Source: Pseudomonadota bacterium | GTDB lineage: Bacteria; Desulfobacterota; Desulfobulbia; Desulfobulbales; SURF-16 | Length of the DNA stretch: 32,310 nucleotides | Assembly: GCA_018897105.1 (NCBI GenBank) | Contig: JAHILF010000073.1 | Location: 1-32,310 of the forward strand | Direction of reading: 5' to 3' | Shown here: piece after piece, positions 5,139 through 22,676 of the stretch | Layout of the letters: every line of letters begins with the position of its first letter | How positions within the stretch are numbered: position 1 is the first letter of the stretch | Position numbers and translations under genes: made by a program | Notes under the pieces: model-generated | The model's input: only the letters and a program-made list of their open reading frames with translations | The model's database searches: none | Told to the model about the DNA's origin: nothing

Positions 5139-6827
5139 TTACAATTTAACCATTTTCCCCAGCACTTCGTCCACGGCAAGAGACTGTTTCATGGATGATT
5201 TCAAAAAGTCCCCGGAGAGATATCTTTTGTTTTCATCTATGAAATCGCAGAGATCCTGTATCCTGCCATTTTCGGACATGTCAATGAGTCTGAGGAGGTT
5301 TTCGGCGAAACTCTTGACGATTTTCCTGCCGTCACCACCAGTTGACATAATCTCGGCATAGGTACGGGGATTCTGGCTGTGAATCCTGGCCATGGCCAGG
5401 ATGCCGTACAGAGAGGTAAGAGTGGAATGGGTGACTATATCATCCGTATTGATGCTGTTTTCGGCCAGCGCCCGGGCCAGTGCCACGGAAACGGTGGTGG
5501 GCAGCTTCTGGCCCACGCCCATGAGCAGGTCGTGGCCGCTGGGCGTGTCATGGCAGATACCGGCACCGTGTTTGTAAAGGAAGGCCTCAAATTCGCTGCA
5601 GAATGCCCCGCTGCGGGCGGTTCTGACCACCGAGGCGTTTTTGTCCTTCATGGTGGCGGCGGCAGGCCCCCACAGATTATGCACCAGCATCAGTTCGATC
5701 CCCTCGCTGGTATGGGCCAAGGCGGTATCAAGGGTATGTTCCGCCTCGCCGGCCAGCAGGATAAGGGCCTGACCGTCGCGCAGCAAAGGGCCGTACTGCT
5801 GAATGGTGTCCGGGGTATTGCTGATGGGCACACAGATCAGCACCACGTCCACCTCGGGGATCATCTGTTCCGGCCGCAGGGAGGTGGAACGGCCGGTGAG
5901 AAGAGTTTTATAGCCTTCATGTTCGAGCTTGTCGGCAAACCATTTACTCATGTCGCCGGTGCCGATGAAGCCAAATGTCTTGATGAGTTTGACCCGCATA
6001 TCCACCCGCGGGTAGCTGCCCAGAATTTTGAGGGAATCCTCTTCCTGAATGATTTTTTTTTCGATGCTTTCCAGGGCGGCGGCGACAGCTGCGTCGTCCC
6101 GATGCCCTTCGGCCTCGAAATAGAACTGCAGCTTCTGGGTTTTGGCATCCGACTCGGCCCGCATGTCGAGAATATTGATGCCACGGCGGGTAAATTCGCC
6201 CAGGGTGTCAAACAGGATGCCCACCCGATCTTTCAGGGGAATGGTAACGATGGAAGTGGCATCATAGCCGGTGCGGACGGCCGGCTGGTGGCCCAGCACG
6301 GCGAAGCGGGTCTTGTTGTGGGACAGTATTTCCCTTTCCCTGATAACCAGGCCCTGGTCGATCAACACCTCTTCCGCCTCGATCACCCCCCGGTCCATCA
6401 GATTATTTTCTCTGATTTCGGCGATGGCCATTTCCAGATCCGGAACACTGAGCAGGGAGATGTCGGGGTAAATTCTGGCAAAATGGTTCTCGCACTGGCG
6501 CAGCACGGACTTGGTACCCAGCAGAATCCGCAGTTTTTCCAGTTTTTCCAGGGAGCCTAATGAGAGGTGGATGGGCAGAACGATGTTGTCAACCCAGAAG
6601 CTGTTCGGCAATTTTTCCATCATCTGGAAGGAGCGGACGATGCCGCCTATCCTGGTGTTGTAAACAGGCAGGAGCAGAAAATCCGCATTCAGTCTCCTGA
6701 AGCCGTCGACCGCGGCATTGATGTGGAAATAGCTGCTGATTTCGCATTCGGGAGAGAATTTGCCGGCCGCTTGCCAGGCATGGGAACCCCTGGGGCCGAT
6801 AATTGCTATGGTAGGTTTTTTTTTCAT
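5139..6827 (-). CDS. PheA-like prephenate dehydratase / ACT / TyrA-like prephenate dehydrogenase fusion
   Basis: A 562-residue three-part protein of phenylalanine/tyrosine synthesis. Residues 5-180 resemble prephenate dehydratase: GPRGSHAWQAA at the start and the catalytic-type KTRFAVLG (Thr173-Arg174-Phe175) at the end. Residues about 188-265 are an ACT regulatory domain (PLKDRVGILFDTL...). From 284 a TyrA-type domain begins with FGFIGTGDMSKW (nucleotide-binding Gly-rich loop at 286), followed by DVVLICVPISNT and VHNLWGP (His383). The C-terminal helical part ends like the E. coli T-protein (ARIHSQNPRTYAEIM). Several signature residues differ: the usual Glu-Asn-Ser/Thr of the dehydratase is Tyr56-Asn57-Thr58, the ACT Glu-Ser-Arg-Pro motif reads AESD, and the TyrA helix lacks its usual second His. 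One or both activities may be altered. Call by family similarity; which reactions it performs is not settled. Confidence 0.82.
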   Translation of the reverse strand: MKKKPTIAIIGPRGSHAWQAAGKFSPECEISSYFHINAAVDGFRRLNADFLLLPVYNTRIGGIVRSFQMMEKLPNSFWVDNIVLPIHLSLGSLEKLEKLRILLGTKSVLRQCENHFARIYPDISLLSVPDLEMAIAEIRENNLMDRGVIEAEEVLIDQGLVIREREILSHNKTRFAVLGHQPAVRTGYDATSIVTIPLKDRVGILFDTLGEFTRRGINILDMRAESDAKTQKLQFYFEAEGHRDDAAVAAALESIEKKIIQEEDSLKILGSYPRVDMRVKLIKTFGFIGTGDMSKWFADKLEHEGYKTLLTGRSTSLRPEQMIPEVDVVLICVPISNTPDTIQQYGPLLRDGQALILLAGEAEHTLDTALAHTSEGIELMLVHNLWGPAAATMKDKNASVVRTARSGAFCSEFEAFLYKHGAGICHDTPSGHDLLMGVGQKLPTTVSVALARALAENSINTDDIVTHSTLTSLYGILAMARIHSQNPRTYAEIMSTGGDGRKIVKSFAENLLRLIDMSENGRIQDLCDFIDENKRYLSGDFLKSSMKQSLAVDEVLGKMVKL

Positions 6828-13933: not shown

Positions 13934-15279
13934 CCATCGGCTTTGCGGATGAGCTGGCACAGTTCATCCGCCATGGCGTCAATGGTGTCCTGATTCTTGC
14001 CTTCCAGCATGACGCGGACCACCGGTTCGGTGCCGGAGTGGCGTACCAGGATGCGACCTTCGTTGCCCAGTTTCTGCTCCATGCGTTTGGCCGTCTCATG
14101 GAAATTGGGCACCATATCCAGGTCGATTTTTTTGGCGGTTCTGACATTCTTCAGCACCTGGGGAAAGGATTCCATGATGGTAGCCAGTTCGGAAAGGGGT
14201 TTGCGGCGTTTGATCATGATGGCCAGCAGCTGCAGGGCGGCAAGGATGCCGTCGCCGGTGGTGTTGTGCTCCAGGAAGATCAGATGGCCAGACTGTTCAC
14301 CGCCAAAGGAGTAATGGTGCTGGCGCATCATCTCCACCACATAGCGGTCACCGACCTGGCTGCGGACCAGTTTGCCGCCCAGTCTCTCCATGGCCTGTTC
14401 AAGCCCCATATTGCTCATCACCGTGGCGACCAGGGTCTTTTTTTTGAGTTTTTTGCGGCTCATGAGTTCAGCGGCGCATATGGCCATGACATGATCGCCG
14501 TTAACGATATTGCCCTTTTCATCAGCGACGATCAAGCGGTCGCCATCTCCATCCAGGGCGATGCCCAGGTCCGCCCCGAGTATTTTGACCTTTTCCGCCA
14601 TCAGCTGCGGATAAAGCGCACCGCATTCATGATTGATATTCTTGCCGTCCGGCTCAACACCGATCTTGGTTACCTTGGCCCCCAGTTCTTCAAAAACATG
14701 GGGCGCAACCCCGTAAGTGGCTCCGTGGGCACAATCTAGGACAATATGGAAGCCGTCCAGGGTATAACTTCTCGGGAAGGTATTTTTCAGAAAGACGATA
14801 TAGCGCCCTCGGGCATCCTCGATGCGGGCCGCCTTGCCCACCTCGTCGGCCACCGGACGCAGGGCTGCCATTTTTTGGGAAAAGATGAGATCTTCAATAT
14901 CCGCCTCTTTTTCGTCCGGGAGTTTGAAGCCGTCCCTGGAAAAGATCTTGATGCCGTTATCCTGAAACGGGTTGTGGGAAGCGGAAATGACCACCCCGGC
15001 ATCGGCACGCATGCTGGTGGTGATAAAGGCGATGCCCGGGGTGGGCAGGGGGCCGCAGAGTAGAACATCGACCCCCATGGAGCATATGCCGGCTGCCAGG
15101 GCGTTTTCCAGCATATAACAGGAAAGTCGCGTATCCTTGCCGATGACGATGCGATGACCATGTCTCCTATCCTTCACCTGGAAGGCAATGCCGCGGCCAA
15201 TCTGCATGGCGATTTCGGTGGTCATCGGATAGGTGTTGGCAACTCCGCGAACACCGTCGGTTCCAAATAGTCTTCTCAT
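13930..15279 (-). CDS. glmM: Phosphoglucosamine mutase GlmM
   Basis: A 449-residue enzyme of full family length that converts glucosamine-6-phosphate to glucosamine-1-phosphate for UDP-GlcNAc and peptidoglycan synthesis. It begins [12 protein letters not shown], the hallmark of GlmM. The active-site phosphoserine is Ser101 in [12 protein letters not shown], the metal loop is [10 protein letters not shown] (about 240), and the sugar-binding loop [10 protein letters not shown] is present. The C-terminal phosphate-binding loop is [16 protein letters not shown] lies 8 bases before the start. It follows cdaA and cdaR, the same order known from Firmicutes, where CdaA, CdaR and GlmM interact and GlmM restrains CdaA. 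A similar contact here is inference. Confidence 0.95.
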
Positions 15280-17852: not shown

Positions 17853-19340
17853 GTGATGTACCAACCAGCACTGGATGATTTTAAAAAGCTGGCTGACAAG
17901 GCAAATCTGATACCTGTATGCCGGGAGATTGTCGCTGATCTTGATACGCCGCTGACGGTTTTTGCCAAAGTAGCCGGGGACGAGTCCCATGCCTTTCTGC
18001 TCGAAAGTCTTGAAGGCGGCGAAAAATGGGGCCGCTATTCCTTTATCGGACTTGACCCGCTGCTTACCTTTGAAAGCAGGGGAGAGAGGATCGTTATCCA
18101 GCGTGATGGCCGGATTGAGGAGCGTGCCGGTGATCCGCTGGCCGAACTGAAGAGTATCCTGGAGTCATTCAATGCCTGCCGGGAAAGCGATTTTCTGCCT
18201 CGTTTTTTTGGCGGGGCGGTGGGCTATCTGGGCTATGACATGGTCAGGTTCATGGAGAGGTTGCCTGACAATAATCAGCCCCTTGATAATTTCCCTGACA
18301 GCTCCTTTATGGTGCCCCGCCTGTTGCTCATCTGCGATAATCTCAAGCAGAAACTGACGGTGGTGAACTGTGTGGTTGCCGAGGCAGGTGACAACCTGGA
18401 GGAATTGTACCAGAAGGCGTGTCAGCGAATTGATGCCGTTATCAAACGGCTCAGGCGCCGGCCACTGCCCTATGATGTGGTTGACAACGACTCTATCGGC
18501 CACACCCATCACTTTGAGTCCAATATGTCCGCCGAGTCCTTCAAGCAGATGGTGGTGCGCGCCAAGGAATATATCATGGCAGGCGACATCATCCAGGTCG
18601 TGCTTTCCCAGCGTTTTCATGCCAAGACTGATCTGCCGCCCTTCATGATCTACCGAGCCCTGCGTCATATCAACCCCAGCCCGTATCTTTTTTATCTCAA
18701 GCTCAATAATAACATCCAGATCGGTTCATCTCCTGAAATTCTGGTACGGCTGGAGGAGGGCAAGATTGAGGTGCGCCCCATTGCCGGCACCCGGCCCAGG
18801 GGAAAGAACAGGGAGGAAGACCTGGCCCTCGAAAAGGAATTGCTGTCCGATCCCAAGGAGCGGGCCGAGCATCTGATGCTGGTTGATCTGGGCCGTAATG
18901 ATGTCGGCCGGGTGGCGGAGTACGGTACGGTGGAAACCCACGATCTGCTGGTCATCGAACGGTACAGTCATGTGATGCATATTGTTTCCGGGGTGCGTGG
19001 CCAACTGGCAGCCGGCAAGGATCAATTTGACGTGGTGCGGGCCTGTTTCCCTGCAGGAACCGTGTCCGGGGCTCCCAAGATCAGGGCCATGGAAATCATA
19101 GAGGAACTGGAGCCGGAGAGGCGCGGCCCCTATGCCGGGGCGGTGGGCTATTTCGGCTTCTCGGGCAATATGGATTTCTGTATCACCATCAGGACCTTCG
19201 TGCTCCAGGACGATAACCTGTGGGTACAGGCCGGGGCCGGTATTGTCGCTGATTCCGACCCGGAAATGGAGTTCCAGGAGACGCTCAATAAAGCTCGGGG
19301 GCTGCGGCGCGCAGTGGAACTGGCTGAAAAAGGATTTTAA
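17853..19340 (+). CDS. trpE: Anthranilate synthase component I
   Basis: A 495-residue chorismate-using subunit that makes anthranilate with TrpG ammonia, the first step of tryptophan synthesis. It has the N-terminal feedback motif LLES (about 48-51) and the matching INPSPYLFYL (from Ile273; tryptophan site residues Pro275-Ser276-Pro277). The chorismate-binding core contains PIAGTRPRGKNREED, LMLVDLGRNDVGRV and FPAGTVSGAPKIRAMEII, ending with GAGIVADSDPEMEFQET. Length is normal. The start is GTG 17853 or ATG 17856, with GGAGG at 17841-17845. It is followed by trpG after a 158-base gap that contains a palindromic repeat. Confidence 0.95.
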   Translation: MMYQPALDDFKKLADKANLIPVCREIVADLDTPLTVFAKVAGDESHAFLLESLEGGEKWGRYSFIGLDPLLTFESRGERIVIQRDGRIEERAGDPLAELKSILESFNACRESDFLPRFFGGAVGYLGYDMVRFMERLPDNNQPLDNFPDSSFMVPRLLLICDNLKQKLTVVNCVVAEAGDNLEELYQKACQRIDAVIKRLRRRPLPYDVVDNDSIGHTHHFESNMSAESFKQMVVRAKEYIMAGDIIQVVLSQRFHAKTDLPPFMIYRALRHINPSPYLFYLKLNNNIQIGSSPEILVRLEEGKIEVRPIAGTRPRGKNREEDLALEKELLSDPKERAEHLMLVDLGRNDVGRVAEYGTVETHDLLVIERYSHVMHIVSGVRGQLAAGKDQFDVVRACFPAGTVSGAPKIRAMEIIEELEPERRGPYAGAVGYFGFSGNMDFCITIRTFVLQDDNLWVQAGAGIVADSDPEMEFQETLNKARGLRRAVELAEKGF

Positions 19341-19350
19341 ATGGCGTCGC

Positions 19351-19455
19351 AAAAAGGCCGCTTTACTGCGTTGCAGGTTTTTTTCAGGACCTCGACATAC
19401 CGCGTGTATAGTTGAGCCCCTGAAAAAAACATTGCGCCTTGTATAGCGAACTTTT
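19351..19455. repeat. Long imperfect inverted repeat between trpE and trpG
   Basis: The arms 19351-19388 and 19419-19455 are near reverse complements. The inner 12 bases (GTTTTTTTCAGG / CCTGAAAAAAAC) pair perfectly, the outer parts with mismatches, around a 30-base loop containing CTCGACATAC. The outer text (AAAAAGGCCGCTTTACTGCG) resembles palindromic elements dispersed in related genomes. It sits inside the trp operon, where the hairpin could lower readthrough into trpG. Confidence 0.65.
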
Positions 19456-19498
19456 GTGCTTAGCCATTCTGTTTTTTTTGACTTTTTATGAGACTGAT

Positions 19499-20080
19499 AT
19501 GATTGTTATTATTGATAATTACGATTCGTTTACCTATAACATTGTGCAGACCATCGGCGGCTTTGGCGAGGAGCTTCTCGTCTTCCGCAATGACCAGGTG
19601 GACATTGCCGGCATTGAGAAAATCAAACCAGACCGGCTGCTGATTTCACCGGGACCCTGTGATCCGCCCCAGGCAGGCATATCCATTGAGGCTATTCGAC
19701 ATTTCGCCGGGAAGATTCCGGTGCTGGGCGTCTGCCTCGGCCACCAGTCCATCGGCGAGGCCTTCGGCGGCTCCACGGTGCGGGCGGGCCGCGTCATGCA
19801 CGGCAAGACCAGCCCCATCCATCATGACGGCAAGGGGGTGTTTGCCGGCCTGCCCAACCCTTTTGACGCCATGCGCTATCATTCACTGGTGATTGCCGAT
19901 GCCGATCTGCCCGATTGCCTCCTGGTGACTGCTCGTACCGAGCAGGGCGAGTTGATGGCTGTGCGCCATAAAACGTTGCTGGTGGAAGGGGTGCAGTTTC
20001 ATCCTGAATCCATCATGACCCCGCATGGGGTGCAGTTGCTGAAAAATTTTATCAGCCCCGATTATGAGAAGATGTTTTGA
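19499..20080 (+). CDS. trpG: Anthranilate synthase component II (glutamine amidotransferase)
   Basis: A 193-residue class I glutamine amidotransferase that supplies ammonia to TrpE. It may also serve PabB as PabA, as in many bacteria. The start at ATG 19499 gives [17 protein letters not shown], the standard TrpG/PabA opening. The longer frame from 19439 would add a hydrophobic leader derived from repeat DNA and is rejected. The catalytic nucleophile is Cys79 in [15 protein letters not shown], and the His/Glu pair lies in [13 protein letters not shown] near the C-terminus. The oxyanion segment [11 protein letters not shown] is at about 50-60. Length is normal for a stand-alone subunit. Confidence 0.94.
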
Positions 20081-20147
20081 AATTGCGGAATGTGGATTGC
20101 GGATTTCGGATTGAAGAATACGGGATGCCAATCCGCATTCCCAAATT
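20081..20147. repeat. Inverted repeat between trpG and trpD
   Basis: AATTGCGGAATGTGGATT (20081-20098) and AATCCGCATTCCCAAATT (20130-20147) are reverse complements with three or four mismatches. The left arm begins directly after the trpG stop. The spacer contains GCGGATTTCGGATTG, another copy of the same word. It may be a hairpin-forming dispersed repeat. Confidence 0.6.
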
Positions 20148-20171
20148 GTGAAAGTTGAGAGGACATAACCT

Positions 20172-21212
20172 ATGATCAAGGAAGCCATTGGTAAAGTTGT
20201 CGTCGGGATCGATCTTTCCGAGAAGGAAATGGTCGGAGTGATGAACGAAATCATGGGCGGCGAGGCCACCCAGGCCCAGATCGGCGCCTTTATCACCGCC
20301 CTGCGGATGAAGGGTGAAACCATCGATGAAATTGCCGGCGCCGCCAGGGTCATGCGGGACAAAGCCACCCATGTGGATGCCGCTGATGCGGGCGAGATCC
20401 TGGTTGATACGGTGGGCACGGGCGGGGACGCCTCTGGCACCTTCAATGTCTCCACCACCACCTCCTTTGTGGTGGCCGGGGCCGGGCTCAAGGTGGCCAA
20501 GCATGGCAACCGGTCCGTTTCCAGCCATTGCGGCAGCGCCGATGTCCTGGAGGCCCTTGGCGTTGATCTGAGTTTGAGCGCGGAAAAGATCGGCCAGTGC
20601 ATCCGCACGGTGGGCATCGGTTTCATGTTTGCCCCCATGCTGCACGGGGCCATGAAGTATGCCATCGGTCCGCGGCGGGAGATCGGCATCAGGACCGTGT
20701 TCAATGTGCTCGGGCCGCTTACCAATCCGGCCAATGCCAATGTCTATGTGCTTGGCGTCTATACCCCTGATTTGATAGAAAAGATTGCCCATGTAATGAG
20801 CAGGTTCTCGGTAAAGCGCGCCTTGGTGGTCTGTGGGGCAGGCAATATTGACGAAATCACCATAACCGGCGAAACTGCGGTGGCTGATCTGCATGACGGC
20901 AAGGTGACCTGTTACTCCATCTCCCCTGAGGACGTCGGGCTTTCCCGGGGCACCCTGGCGGATATCAAAGGCGGTGAGACCGCCGAGATCTCAGCGGGGC
21001 AGCTCCGTTCCGTGCTGCGCGGCGAAGTCGGTCCCTGTCTGGATATGGTGTTGATGAACAGTGGGGCGGCGCTGATGGCGGCAGGACTTGCTCCTGATCT
21101 GCCGGGAGGTGTCGCCTTGGCCAGGAAGACGATTGAGTCGGGTGCGGCCATGGCCAAGCTTGAGGCGCTGGTGCAGTTCTGCCGGGAAGCGGGGGAAAAA
21201 GGTGATTCTTGA
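20172..21212 (+). CDS. trpD: Anthranilate phosphoribosyltransferase
   Basis: A 346-residue enzyme that joins anthranilate to phosphoribosyl pyrophosphate. It has the PRPP-binding motif DTVGTGGDASGTFNVST (about 77-93), followed by KHGNRSVSSHCGSADVLEALG. The anthranilate-site block GPRREIGIRTVFNVLGPLTNPA is at about 165-185. The N-terminal helical bundle (MGGEATQAQIGAFITALRMKGET) is typical. It starts with ATG preceded by GAGAGG. It overlaps trpC by 11 bases at its 3' end, indicating translational coupling. Length and motifs are all normal. Confidence 0.95.
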   Translation: MIKEAIGKVVVGIDLSEKEMVGVMNEIMGGEATQAQIGAFITALRMKGETIDEIAGAARVMRDKATHVDAADAGEILVDTVGTGGDASGTFNVSTTTSFVVAGAGLKVAKHGNRSVSSHCGSADVLEALGVDLSLSAEKIGQCIRTVGIGFMFAPMLHGAMKYAIGPRREIGIRTVFNVLGPLTNPANANVYVLGVYTPDLIEKIAHVMSRFSVKRALVVCGAGNIDEITITGETAVADLHDGKVTCYSISPEDVGLSRGTLADIKGGETAEISAGQLRSVLRGEVGPCLDMVLMNSGAALMAAGLAPDLPGGVALARKTIESGAAMAKLEALVQFCREAGEKGDS

Positions 21213-21966
21213 TACCATTGTCGAACAGAAACGCCTGGAGGTCAAAGAGCTGCTGGCTAAAGGCATGGGTGAACCGCAGCTGGAAGTAACTCCGCCCCGG
21301 GGGTTTAGCAAGGCGCTGACCGCTTTTGCCGGGGTATCGCTGATTGCCGAGGCAAAAAAAGCATCGCCCTCCAAAGGGGTCATCTGCGCTGATTTTGATC
21401 CGGTGGCCATTGCCCGGCAATACGAGGCGGGGGGTGCCCAGGCCATGTCGGTTCTGACCGATGAGAAATTCTTCCAGGGCAGCCTTGCCTATATTACCCA
21501 GGTGAGGGCAGCGGTGAGCCTGCCGGTGCTGCGCAAGGATTTCATGATCCATGAGGTGCAGATTGCCCAGGCGGCACGATTCGGGGCTGATGCTATTCTG
21601 CTCATTGCCGCTATCCTGGAAATAAATCAGATGCAGGATTTCTTGTCCCAGAGCCGTGAGCTGGGCATGGACGCCCTGGTGGAAGTGCATGACGAGGCGG
21701 AGCTGGAAAAGGCACTTGCAGCCGGCAGCTCGCTGATCGGCATCAATAACCGCAACCTGAAGGACTTCTCCATGGATCTGGAGACTACCTTCCGTCTGCA
21801 GCGGGAGATTCCCGAAGACATTCCAGTGGTCAGTGAATCCGGCATCCGCACCGTGGAGGATATCAGGCGTTTGGCTGCCGCAGGCATTGCCGCGGTACTT
21901 GTCGGCGAAACCCTCATGCGGGCAAACGGCAGGGAACTGGCGGTGCATGAGTTGATGGGCCGGTGA
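21202..21966 (+). CDS. trpC: Indole-3-glycerol phosphate synthase
   Basis: A 254-residue TIM-barrel enzyme that closes the indole ring. The start is GTG 21202, preceded by GGGGGAAAAAG and reading VILDTIVEQKRLEVKELLAKG. Upstream in-frame starts would give 38 residues unlike the family. Motifs present are LIAEAKKASPSKGVICADFDP (catalytic Lys-Lys-Ser-Pro-Ser), SVLTDEKFFQGSLAYI, LPVLRKDFMIHEVQI, GINNRNLKDFSMDLETT and VSESGIRTVEDI. It is a stand-alone TrpC, not fused to TrpF as in enteric bacteria. It overlaps trpD by 11 bases. Confidence 0.95.
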   Translation: MILDTIVEQKRLEVKELLAKGMGEPQLEVTPPRGFSKALTAFAGVSLIAEAKKASPSKGVICADFDPVAIARQYEAGGAQAMSVLTDEKFFQGSLAYITQVRAAVSLPVLRKDFMIHEVQIAQAARFGADAILLIAAILEINQMQDFLSQSRELGMDALVEVHDEAELEKALAAGSSLIGINNRNLKDFSMDLETTFRLQREIPEDIPVVSESGIRTVEDIRRLAAAGIAAVLVGETLMRANGRELAVHELMGR

Positions 21967-22046
21967 GGCCCCCCAGCCTGCCTTACCTCGTCTGCTCATA
22001 ATGGATTTTCTGCTTTTTGGCAGAGTGTTGGGTAAAGGAGCGACAA

Positions 22047-22676
22047 ATGAGATCCAGAACACGGATCAAGATCTGCGGCATGACGGATGTGGAAGAAGTA
22101 CAGTACGCGGTGGCTGCGGGAGTTGATGCCCTTGGCTTTATTTTTGCCAAGGCCAGCCCTAGATATATCGACCCGGAACGTGCCAGGGGCATTATCAACA
22201 TTCTGCCTCCCTTTGTTGATGCGGTGGGGGTGTTTTTAAATGACGCGGCGGAACGGGTGGAGGAAATTGTGCAATATTGCAATGTTACCGTCATCCAGCT
22301 GCACGGCGCCGAATCACCTGACTACTGTCGGCGGTTTCAGACCAGGGTGGTAAAGGCCTTTCAGGTGCATGATAAGCTCACTGCCCAGGATCTGTTTGCC
22401 TATGAGGAGGTGGTGTCCGGTTTTCTGTTGGATACCTATGACAAAAAACAGGCAGGGGGTACGGGGAAGACCTTTGACTGGTCTCTTATCCATAAACTGC
22501 AGCCGGGGAAACCGGTGATTCTGGCAGGTGGTCTGGGACCGGCTAATGTGGCCCAGGCCATCTCCGCGGTACGACCTTTTGCGGTGGACATCAATTCCGC
22601 CATTGAAACAGAACCGGGCCGCAAGGACCCGGTTCTTATCAGCAGGTTGGTTGAAGCGGTTGCCGCAACCTTTTAA
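22047..22676 (+). CDS. trpF: Phosphoribosylanthranilate isomerase
   Basis: A 209-residue TIM-barrel isomerase that converts phosphoribosylanthranilate to the carboxyphenylamino intermediate used by TrpC. The start at ATG 22047 has an ideal AAAGGAG 6 bases before it; the frame from 22017 would add ten extra residues. The catalytic Cys is in KICGMTDVEE at the N-terminus, and GFIFAKASPRYIDPE, IQLHGAESPDYC, LLDTYDKKQAGGTGKTFDW and LAGGLGPANVAQAI follow. The final Ser-type motif AVDINSAIETEPGRKDP is near the C-terminus. It ends five bases from the converging protease gene, so trpB and trpA are not in this operon. Confidence 0.94.
   Translation: MRSRTRIKICGMTDVEEVQYAVAAGVDALGFIFAKASPRYIDPERARGIINILPPFVDAVGVFLNDAAERVEEIVQYCNVTVIQLHGAESPDYCRRFQTRVVKAFQVHDKLTAQDLFAYEEVVSGFLLDTYDKKQAGGTGKTFDWSLIHKLQPGKPVILAGGLGPANVAQAISAVRPFAVDINSAIETEPGRKDPVLISRLVEAVAATF

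Follow-up and report, generated by a model that had tools for sequence, protein, structure and literature searches.

Fusion proteins built around prephenate dehydrogenase (TyrA) have been reviewed with AroQ, AroF, ACT and REG domains as partners, next to a four-domain protein of Archaeoglobus (PMC1173090), and among archaea the fusion of PheA with TyrA is found in Archaeoglobus and Huberarchaea only (PMC11237513). The Archaeoglobus fulgidus protein (TyrA-AroQ-PheA-ACT; PMC1173090; PMC11237513) resembles the one reported here in carrying PheA, ACT and TyrA on a single chain; its TyrA is N-terminal, however, the chain also contains a chorismate mutase, and catalytic roles are ascribed to the three domains. 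ACT-regulated TyrA proteins, known from the Bacillus group, Xanthomonas and Xylella (PMC1173090), likewise combine TyrA with an ACT regulatory domain. Among solved structures, the TyrA half of our protein is closest to the AroQ-TyrA enzymes of E. coli and H. influenzae (2pv7; TyrAc-delta class), with which it shares the substrate-adjacent Gln and Tyr, and its other half shares the fold, the TRF motif and the pocket Asn and Gln of PheA (6vh5, 2qmx).

Here, we describe a fusion protein of the class Desulfobulbia that departs from each of these systems. In contrast to the Archaeoglobus protein, its domains follow the order prephenate dehydratase (PDT)-ACT-TyrA without a mutase, the catalytic Glu of the dehydratase is replaced, and a second, intact PheA is present. 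Unlike in the ACT-regulated TyrA proteins, the ACT domain is N-terminal and attached to a whole PDT-like domain. Compared with E. coli and H. influenzae TyrA, the partner is PDT-ACT rather than AroQ, His257 and Ser176 are replaced, and identity amounts to 22% over the aligned part, whereas the differences from PheA are a Tyr at the Glu159 position, the missing ESRP motif and the attached TyrA. None of the reviewed fusions (PMC1173090; PMC11237513) combines the PDT-ACT-TyrA order with a substituted dehydratase residue and an additional, intact PheA. We found no publication on PDT-ACT-TyrA in Desulfobulbales in the open-access literature, an earlier description elsewhere being possible, and no term beginning with Desulfobulb appears in the GapMind paper.

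Results

Domain architecture and locus

The window, i.e. the whole stretch of 32,310 nucleotides that was analysed, contains an open reading frame in which the first-pass annotation had recognised a single 562-residue protein with PDT, ACT and TyrA domains. The reading frame and the Pfam matches bear this out, and we add that the gene lies on the minus strand (Table 1). PDT (PF00800; 79.8 bits against a cut-off of 25.2), ACT (PF01842; 37.2 against 27) and, at residues 428-529, the TyrA dimerisation domain PDH_C (PF20463; 32.1 against 22) all exceed their Pfam cut-offs. The TyrA nucleotide domain PDH_N (PF02153) stays below its own, with 14 against 26.5 bits, and the NCBIfam equivalog models for PheA and TyrA match the fusion far under their respective cut-offs. 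A chorismate mutase domain (CM_2) is absent from the protein according to Pfam. In an AlphaFold2 model with a mean pLDDT of 80, in which ACT residues 202-231 are poorly predicted, residues 2-278 resemble the prephenate dehydratase 6vh5 (Z 19.3, 263 residues aligned, rmsd 4.2) and residues 277-515 resemble H. influenzae TyrA 2pv7 (Z 21.4, 200 residues aligned, rmsd 3.4).

No aromatic operon was found at the fusion locus. The usual neighbours of the gene encode a DEAD-box helicase, an SH3 protein and a zinc-ribbon protein, all named from sequence only, and no Rfam leader or riboswitch matched within the window. Elsewhere in the window, a run of tryptophan genes on the plus strand (17853-22676) was recognised by eye as trpE, trpG, trpD, trpC and trpF.

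Table 1. Features of the fusion gene in the window, and the related fusion of another class. Counts refer to aligned fusion homologues.
Feature	Position	Strand	Evidence or remark
Whole fusion gene PDT-ACT-TyrA, 562 aa	5139..6827	-	ATG start at 6827; full-length orthologues exist
PDT-like domain, residues 7-181	6285..6809	-	PF00800 79.8 bits; fold matches 6vh5, 2qmx
Y56-N57-T58-R59-I60-G61 (PheA ENSxEG); E. coli Glu159 is Tyr56	6645..6662	-	alignment
Gln111 (E. coli PheA Gln215)	6495..6497	-	96/96
Thr173-Arg174-Phe175, TRF (E. coli 278-280)	6303..6311	-	alignment
ACT domain, residues 198-256	6060..6236	-	PF01842 37.2 bits
R223-A-E-S-D227, where PheA ACT has ESRP	6147..6161	-	E225 94/96, D227 94/96
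TyrA (prephenate dehydrogenase) domain, residues 283-562	5142..5981	-	PF20463 32.1 bits; 2pv7 Z 21.4; NCBIfam TyrA models below cut-offs
Gly360 (E. coli TyrA Ser176 position)	5748..5750	-	Gly 96/96
His383, catalytic His (E. coli His197)	5679..5681	-	96/96
His432-Asp433 (E. coli His245-Asp246), catalytic His partner	5529..5534	-	96/96, 95/96; role PMC2954222
Q440-K-L-P-T444; T444 aligns with E. coli His257, which tyrosine inhibition requires	5496..5510	-	alignment; role PMC2954222
Arg481 (E. coli Arg294, substrate carboxylate) to Gln485 (E. coli Gln298, substrate selector)	5373..5387	-	95/95 each; selector PMC5681985
Sister fusion (genomes G592, G641)	L151 1213-2607; L173

Aromatic genes of the host genome

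By profile search, the host genome (4.95 Mb, estimated to be 100% complete) has three PDT loci, namely the fusion, a PheA on C166 and a PDT-only protein on C133. The C166 protein is a canonical PheA of 369 residues with the order chorismate mutase-PDT-ACT, in which PLENSIEG, NTTRF and ESRP are intact, and it is the sole chorismate mutase match of the genome. No further TyrA was found in the genome: PDH_N matches nothing and PDH_C the fusion only, while in 14 control genomes the two profiles matched 14/14 and 12/14, respectively. Given that PDH_N also misses the fusion, a second TyrA of equal divergence could escape this profile; PDH_C finds the fusion alone. As far as is known, these bacteria need no added tyrosine for growth. 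The other known route to tyrosine, phenylalanine hydroxylase, requires oxygen (PMC7311316). Because a separate canonical PheA is present and no other TyrA was found in the host genome, the fusion is very probably the tyrosine enzyme. The first-pass annotation had called for a search for separate pheA and tyrA genes and had envisaged that the fusion might be the only such gene in the genome; the search returned the intact PheA and no TyrA besides the fusion, so that this premise fails for PheA, and a sole bifunctional enzyme is ruled out for the host by the separate copy.

The PDT-only gene (C133 ~14,131-14,772; L002 1426-2067) directly follows a gene for a probable PAS sensor kinase and encodes 213 residues, with LYNSRGG and NETTF replacing ENSxxG and NxTRF. 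High-score matches occur in just three genomes of the genus, and the protein is possibly another PDT-derived ligand binder. A connection of this paralogue, which also reads YNSR, to the fusion was considered and rejected: at high score it is limited to three genomes, and in the tree its long branch falls outside the clade of the fusions, and we therefore do not claim a common origin.

Residues of the PDT and ACT domains

Conservation was counted over 96 aligned fusion homologues, of which 95 have a letter at some columns. The residue at position 56, equivalent to Glu159 of E. coli PheA, is Tyr in 89 and Phe in 6 of 95 homologues, and Glu occurs in none of them; in E. coli, Glu159 is important for substrate binding, as PMC8192741 states in citing Zhang 2000. 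Retained, on the other hand, are the equivalents of E. coli Asn160 (N57, 94/95), Thr161, Gln215 (Q111, 96/96), Thr278 (T173, 95/96), Arg279 (R174, 96/96) and Phe280, and the initial reading of this domain, TRF kept at 173-175 and Tyr56-Asn57-Thr58 in place of Glu-Asn-Ser/Thr, is confirmed in the open reading frame. The columns with the least variation are G11, A20, P54, W78, N81, Q111, R165, R174, T173, N57 and G61, such that new invariant residues (W78, N81 and R165, joined by R59 in 92/95) stand beside conserved pocket residues.

Although PDT varies more than the other two domains, dN/dS among close relatives is 0.05-0.19 for PDT, 0.03-0.21 for ACT and 0.05-0.11 for TyrA, and purifying selection acts on PDT. 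The description of the catalytic signatures as partly eroded has to be abandoned, since the unusual residues are themselves conserved (Tyr or Phe at position 56 in 95/95, Q440-K441-L442-P443 in 96/96, H383 in 96/96) and dN/dS is low; erosion or a pseudogene is ruled out by this low ratio along with full-length conservation. In the tree, the PDT domains of the fusion form one clade on a long branch, and they may or may not derive from the PheA of the class itself.

In the ACT domain, the ESRP motif of PheA is replaced, and E225, D227 and Q231 are newly fixed. The letters AESD, earlier given as the counterpart of ESRP, are indeed found at 224-227, but the register was one off: ESRP aligns with R223-A224-E225-S226.

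Residues of the TyrA domain

When compared to E. coli TyrA, the fusion retains His197, His245-Asp246, Arg294, Gln298 and Tyr303, whereas Ser176 is changed to Gly360, Lys178 to Ala or Ser, His257 to Thr444, and the motif HPxFGP to HNLWGP. Preservation of His383 had been noted before and holds in all 96 homologues; the change of Ser176, equally invariant, had been overlooked. It had also been noted that GQKLPTT lacks a usual His, and this requires qualification: the letters are present at 439-445, but the His of the catalytic network is kept (H432-D433), and the residue that is lost corresponds to E. coli His257. With three otherwise well-conserved positions changed (Ser176, His257 and HPxFGP), the activity or the substrate of the domain could differ.

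Two of these positions bear on function. The substitution His257Ala in E. coli and its equivalent His217Ala in A. aeolicus abolish tyrosine inhibition (PMC2954222), and from the Thr at this position we infer that tyrosine control has left the active site; the PDT-ACT module would be the obvious place for it to have moved to. In addition, the position of soybean residue 222 carries an acidic residue in arogenate enzymes, whereas prephenate enzymes have Asn or Gln there (PMC5681985). A two-step alignment, via the short TyrA L116 described below and the TyrA alignment, equates this position with E. coli Gln298 and thus with Gln485, which points to prephenate as the substrate. The second beta strand of the TyrA domain ends in a Gly-Arg pair that suggests NADP+, a cofactor also used by a prephenate-type archaeal TyrA (PMC5681985).

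Distribution and a sister fusion

Of the 258 class genomes searched, 241 encode the fusion at E <= 5e-31. At E <= 1e-5, matches were obtained in 249 of the 258, and eight genomes were left out because their best match was no better than ~1e-15 and hence probably PheA. Carriers comprise Desulfobulbaceae and related groups, with Desulfobulbus, Desulfofustis, Desulfogranum and Candidatus Electrothrix among them; the cultured species Desulfofustis glycolicus and Desulfobulbus elongatus have the gene. A canonical PDT (E about 1e-46 to 1e-65) is found in nearly all class genomes as well, and an additional TyrA above the PDH_N cut-off in nine only; two further matches above this cut-off are the fusion itself. 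Among the matches listed for 395 genomes drawn from the phylum, there was no full-length fusion outside the class.

The additional TyrAs of these nine genomes, which belong to one family in the class, are short, plant-like proteins of ~250 residues (L116-L124). In the three that were aligned, the position of soybean residue 222 is acidic, and they may be of the arogenate type. One of the nine genomes (G140, 98% complete) lacks both a PDT and the fusion.

A related fusion occurs in another class, in G592 and G641 (2 of 24 genomes searched in their family). It has 463-465 residues and consists of the first PDT lobe only, followed by DKTRF, ACT and TyrA. Like the Desulfobulbia fusion, it shows the same domain order and is accompanied by a separate PheA, here of 365 residues, with no other TyrA found in either genome; the TyrA tree groups the two fusions as sisters (98/95), both on long branches. 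Unlike the Desulfobulbia fusion, it has the second PDT lobe deleted, reads ENV or ESV instead of YNT, and keeps the His of QGLEH in TyrA. As the PDT remnant is devoid of the lobe that bears the Gln215 equivalent, it cannot be a dehydratase. In a third genome (L152), aroQ-pheA stops at a TGA and tyrA begins one codon later in the same frame, an arrangement that could be a route by which such a fusion arises.

Discussion

We consider it probable, on the strength of the sequence comparisons, that the fusion is a TyrA of the tyrosine branch controlled by a non-catalytic PDT-ACT module. The TyrA domain would oxidise prephenate to 4-hydroxyphenylpyruvate, and phenylalanine would be supplied by the separate chorismate mutase-PheA-ACT protein. 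The PDT-ACT half would be a descendant of prephenate dehydratase that has lost phenylpyruvate production, whose lobes may still clasp a ligand resembling prephenate by means of N57, T58, Q111, T173 and R174, with Tyr56 in place of the dehydratase acid. The ACT domain would bind an end product, most likely tyrosine, as we guess from the logic of the pathway. Together, PDT and ACT might then switch TyrA and so substitute for the direct tyrosine inhibition lost with His257 of E. coli.

The three altered TyrA positions count against this proposal, as do the location of the gene outside any aromatic operon and the long branches on which the grouping with the sister fusion (L151) rests. The parts of this proposal differ in strength. 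Prephenate dehydrogenase activity of the fusion is highly likely and dehydratase activity is likely to be absent, while loss of Glu159 need not abolish the latter. Regarding the PDT cleft, we lean towards the view that it binds a ligand. More tentatively, the cleft, a former PheA active site, could be a prephenate receptor that gauges the substrate pool shared by both branches and, along with ACT-bound tyrosine, adjusts the activity of TyrA, which would have turned an ancestral competitor into the regulator of its rival throughout the class; this last step we judge somewhat more likely to be wrong than right. Still, replacement of the catalytic acid combined with class-wide conservation of the binding pocket is suggestive of an enzyme that has turned into a built-in sensor. 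Of the readings offered by the first-pass annotation, the sensor is also the best supported, considering the separate PheA, the PDT Glu replaced across the class with the pocket kept, and the lobe lost by the sister fusion; its premise of an eroded domain does not stand.

Alternatively, PDT might be a mere scaffold for oligomerisation or for placing ACT, binding no small molecule. This would agree with PDT being the most variable domain and with the sister form, which does without one lobe and persists as sole TyrA; it is nevertheless unlikely, given that many of the most conserved columns in Desulfobulbia are known pocket positions (N57, T58, G61, Q111, T173 and R174). We also see little chance that the fusion is an ordinary bifunctional enzyme whose PDT dehydrates prephenate with Tyr56, duplicating the separate PheA: nearly all genomes of the class have a canonical PheA as well, none of the 95 homologues with a residue at this column retains the Glu, and the sister fusion lost the entire Gln-bearing lobe. 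In favour of this reading are the retention of TRF, Asn57, Thr58 and Gln111 and the purifying selection on PDT.

Use of L-arogenate or another cyclohexadienyl substrate by the TyrA domain, instead of prephenate, appears improbable. While some arogenate dehydrogenases likewise have another residue in place of His257 (PMC2954222), Ser176 is changed to Gly and the Gly-Arg pair suggests NADP+, the selector position, acidic in arogenate enzymes and Gln or Asn in prephenate enzymes, is Gln485 in 95/95, and NADP+ is accepted by a prephenate-type archaeal TyrA, too (PMC5681985). The suggestion made at the outset that the protein might use another substrate is thus weakly opposed, both by Gln485 and by the host genome, in which no other TyrA was found. 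PDT homologues with a different activity exist (BacA), and another reaction of PDT on prephenate, e.g. a non-aromatising decarboxylation, would accommodate the pocket residues kept alongside the new invariants W78, N81, R165 and R59 (92/95), but we regard it as very improbable since the locus has no biosynthetic neighbours, the fusion, in contrast to specialised enzymes of that sort, belongs to the core genes of the class, and the reaction would be impossible for the one-lobed sister form.

The fusion has practical implications and may have evolutionary ones. Because its TyrA half fails to reach the cut-offs of PDH_N and of every NCBIfam TyrA model, automatic annotation likely misses tyrosine synthesis, and pipelines are likely to overlook this capacity in the sulfate reducers and cable bacteria of the class and to count a second PheA instead. 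If the reading that we favour is true, a catalytic domain now serves as the allosteric domain of its rival for a common substrate, an arrangement conserved in hundreds of species, and the sister lineage shows a further reduction of the converted domain.
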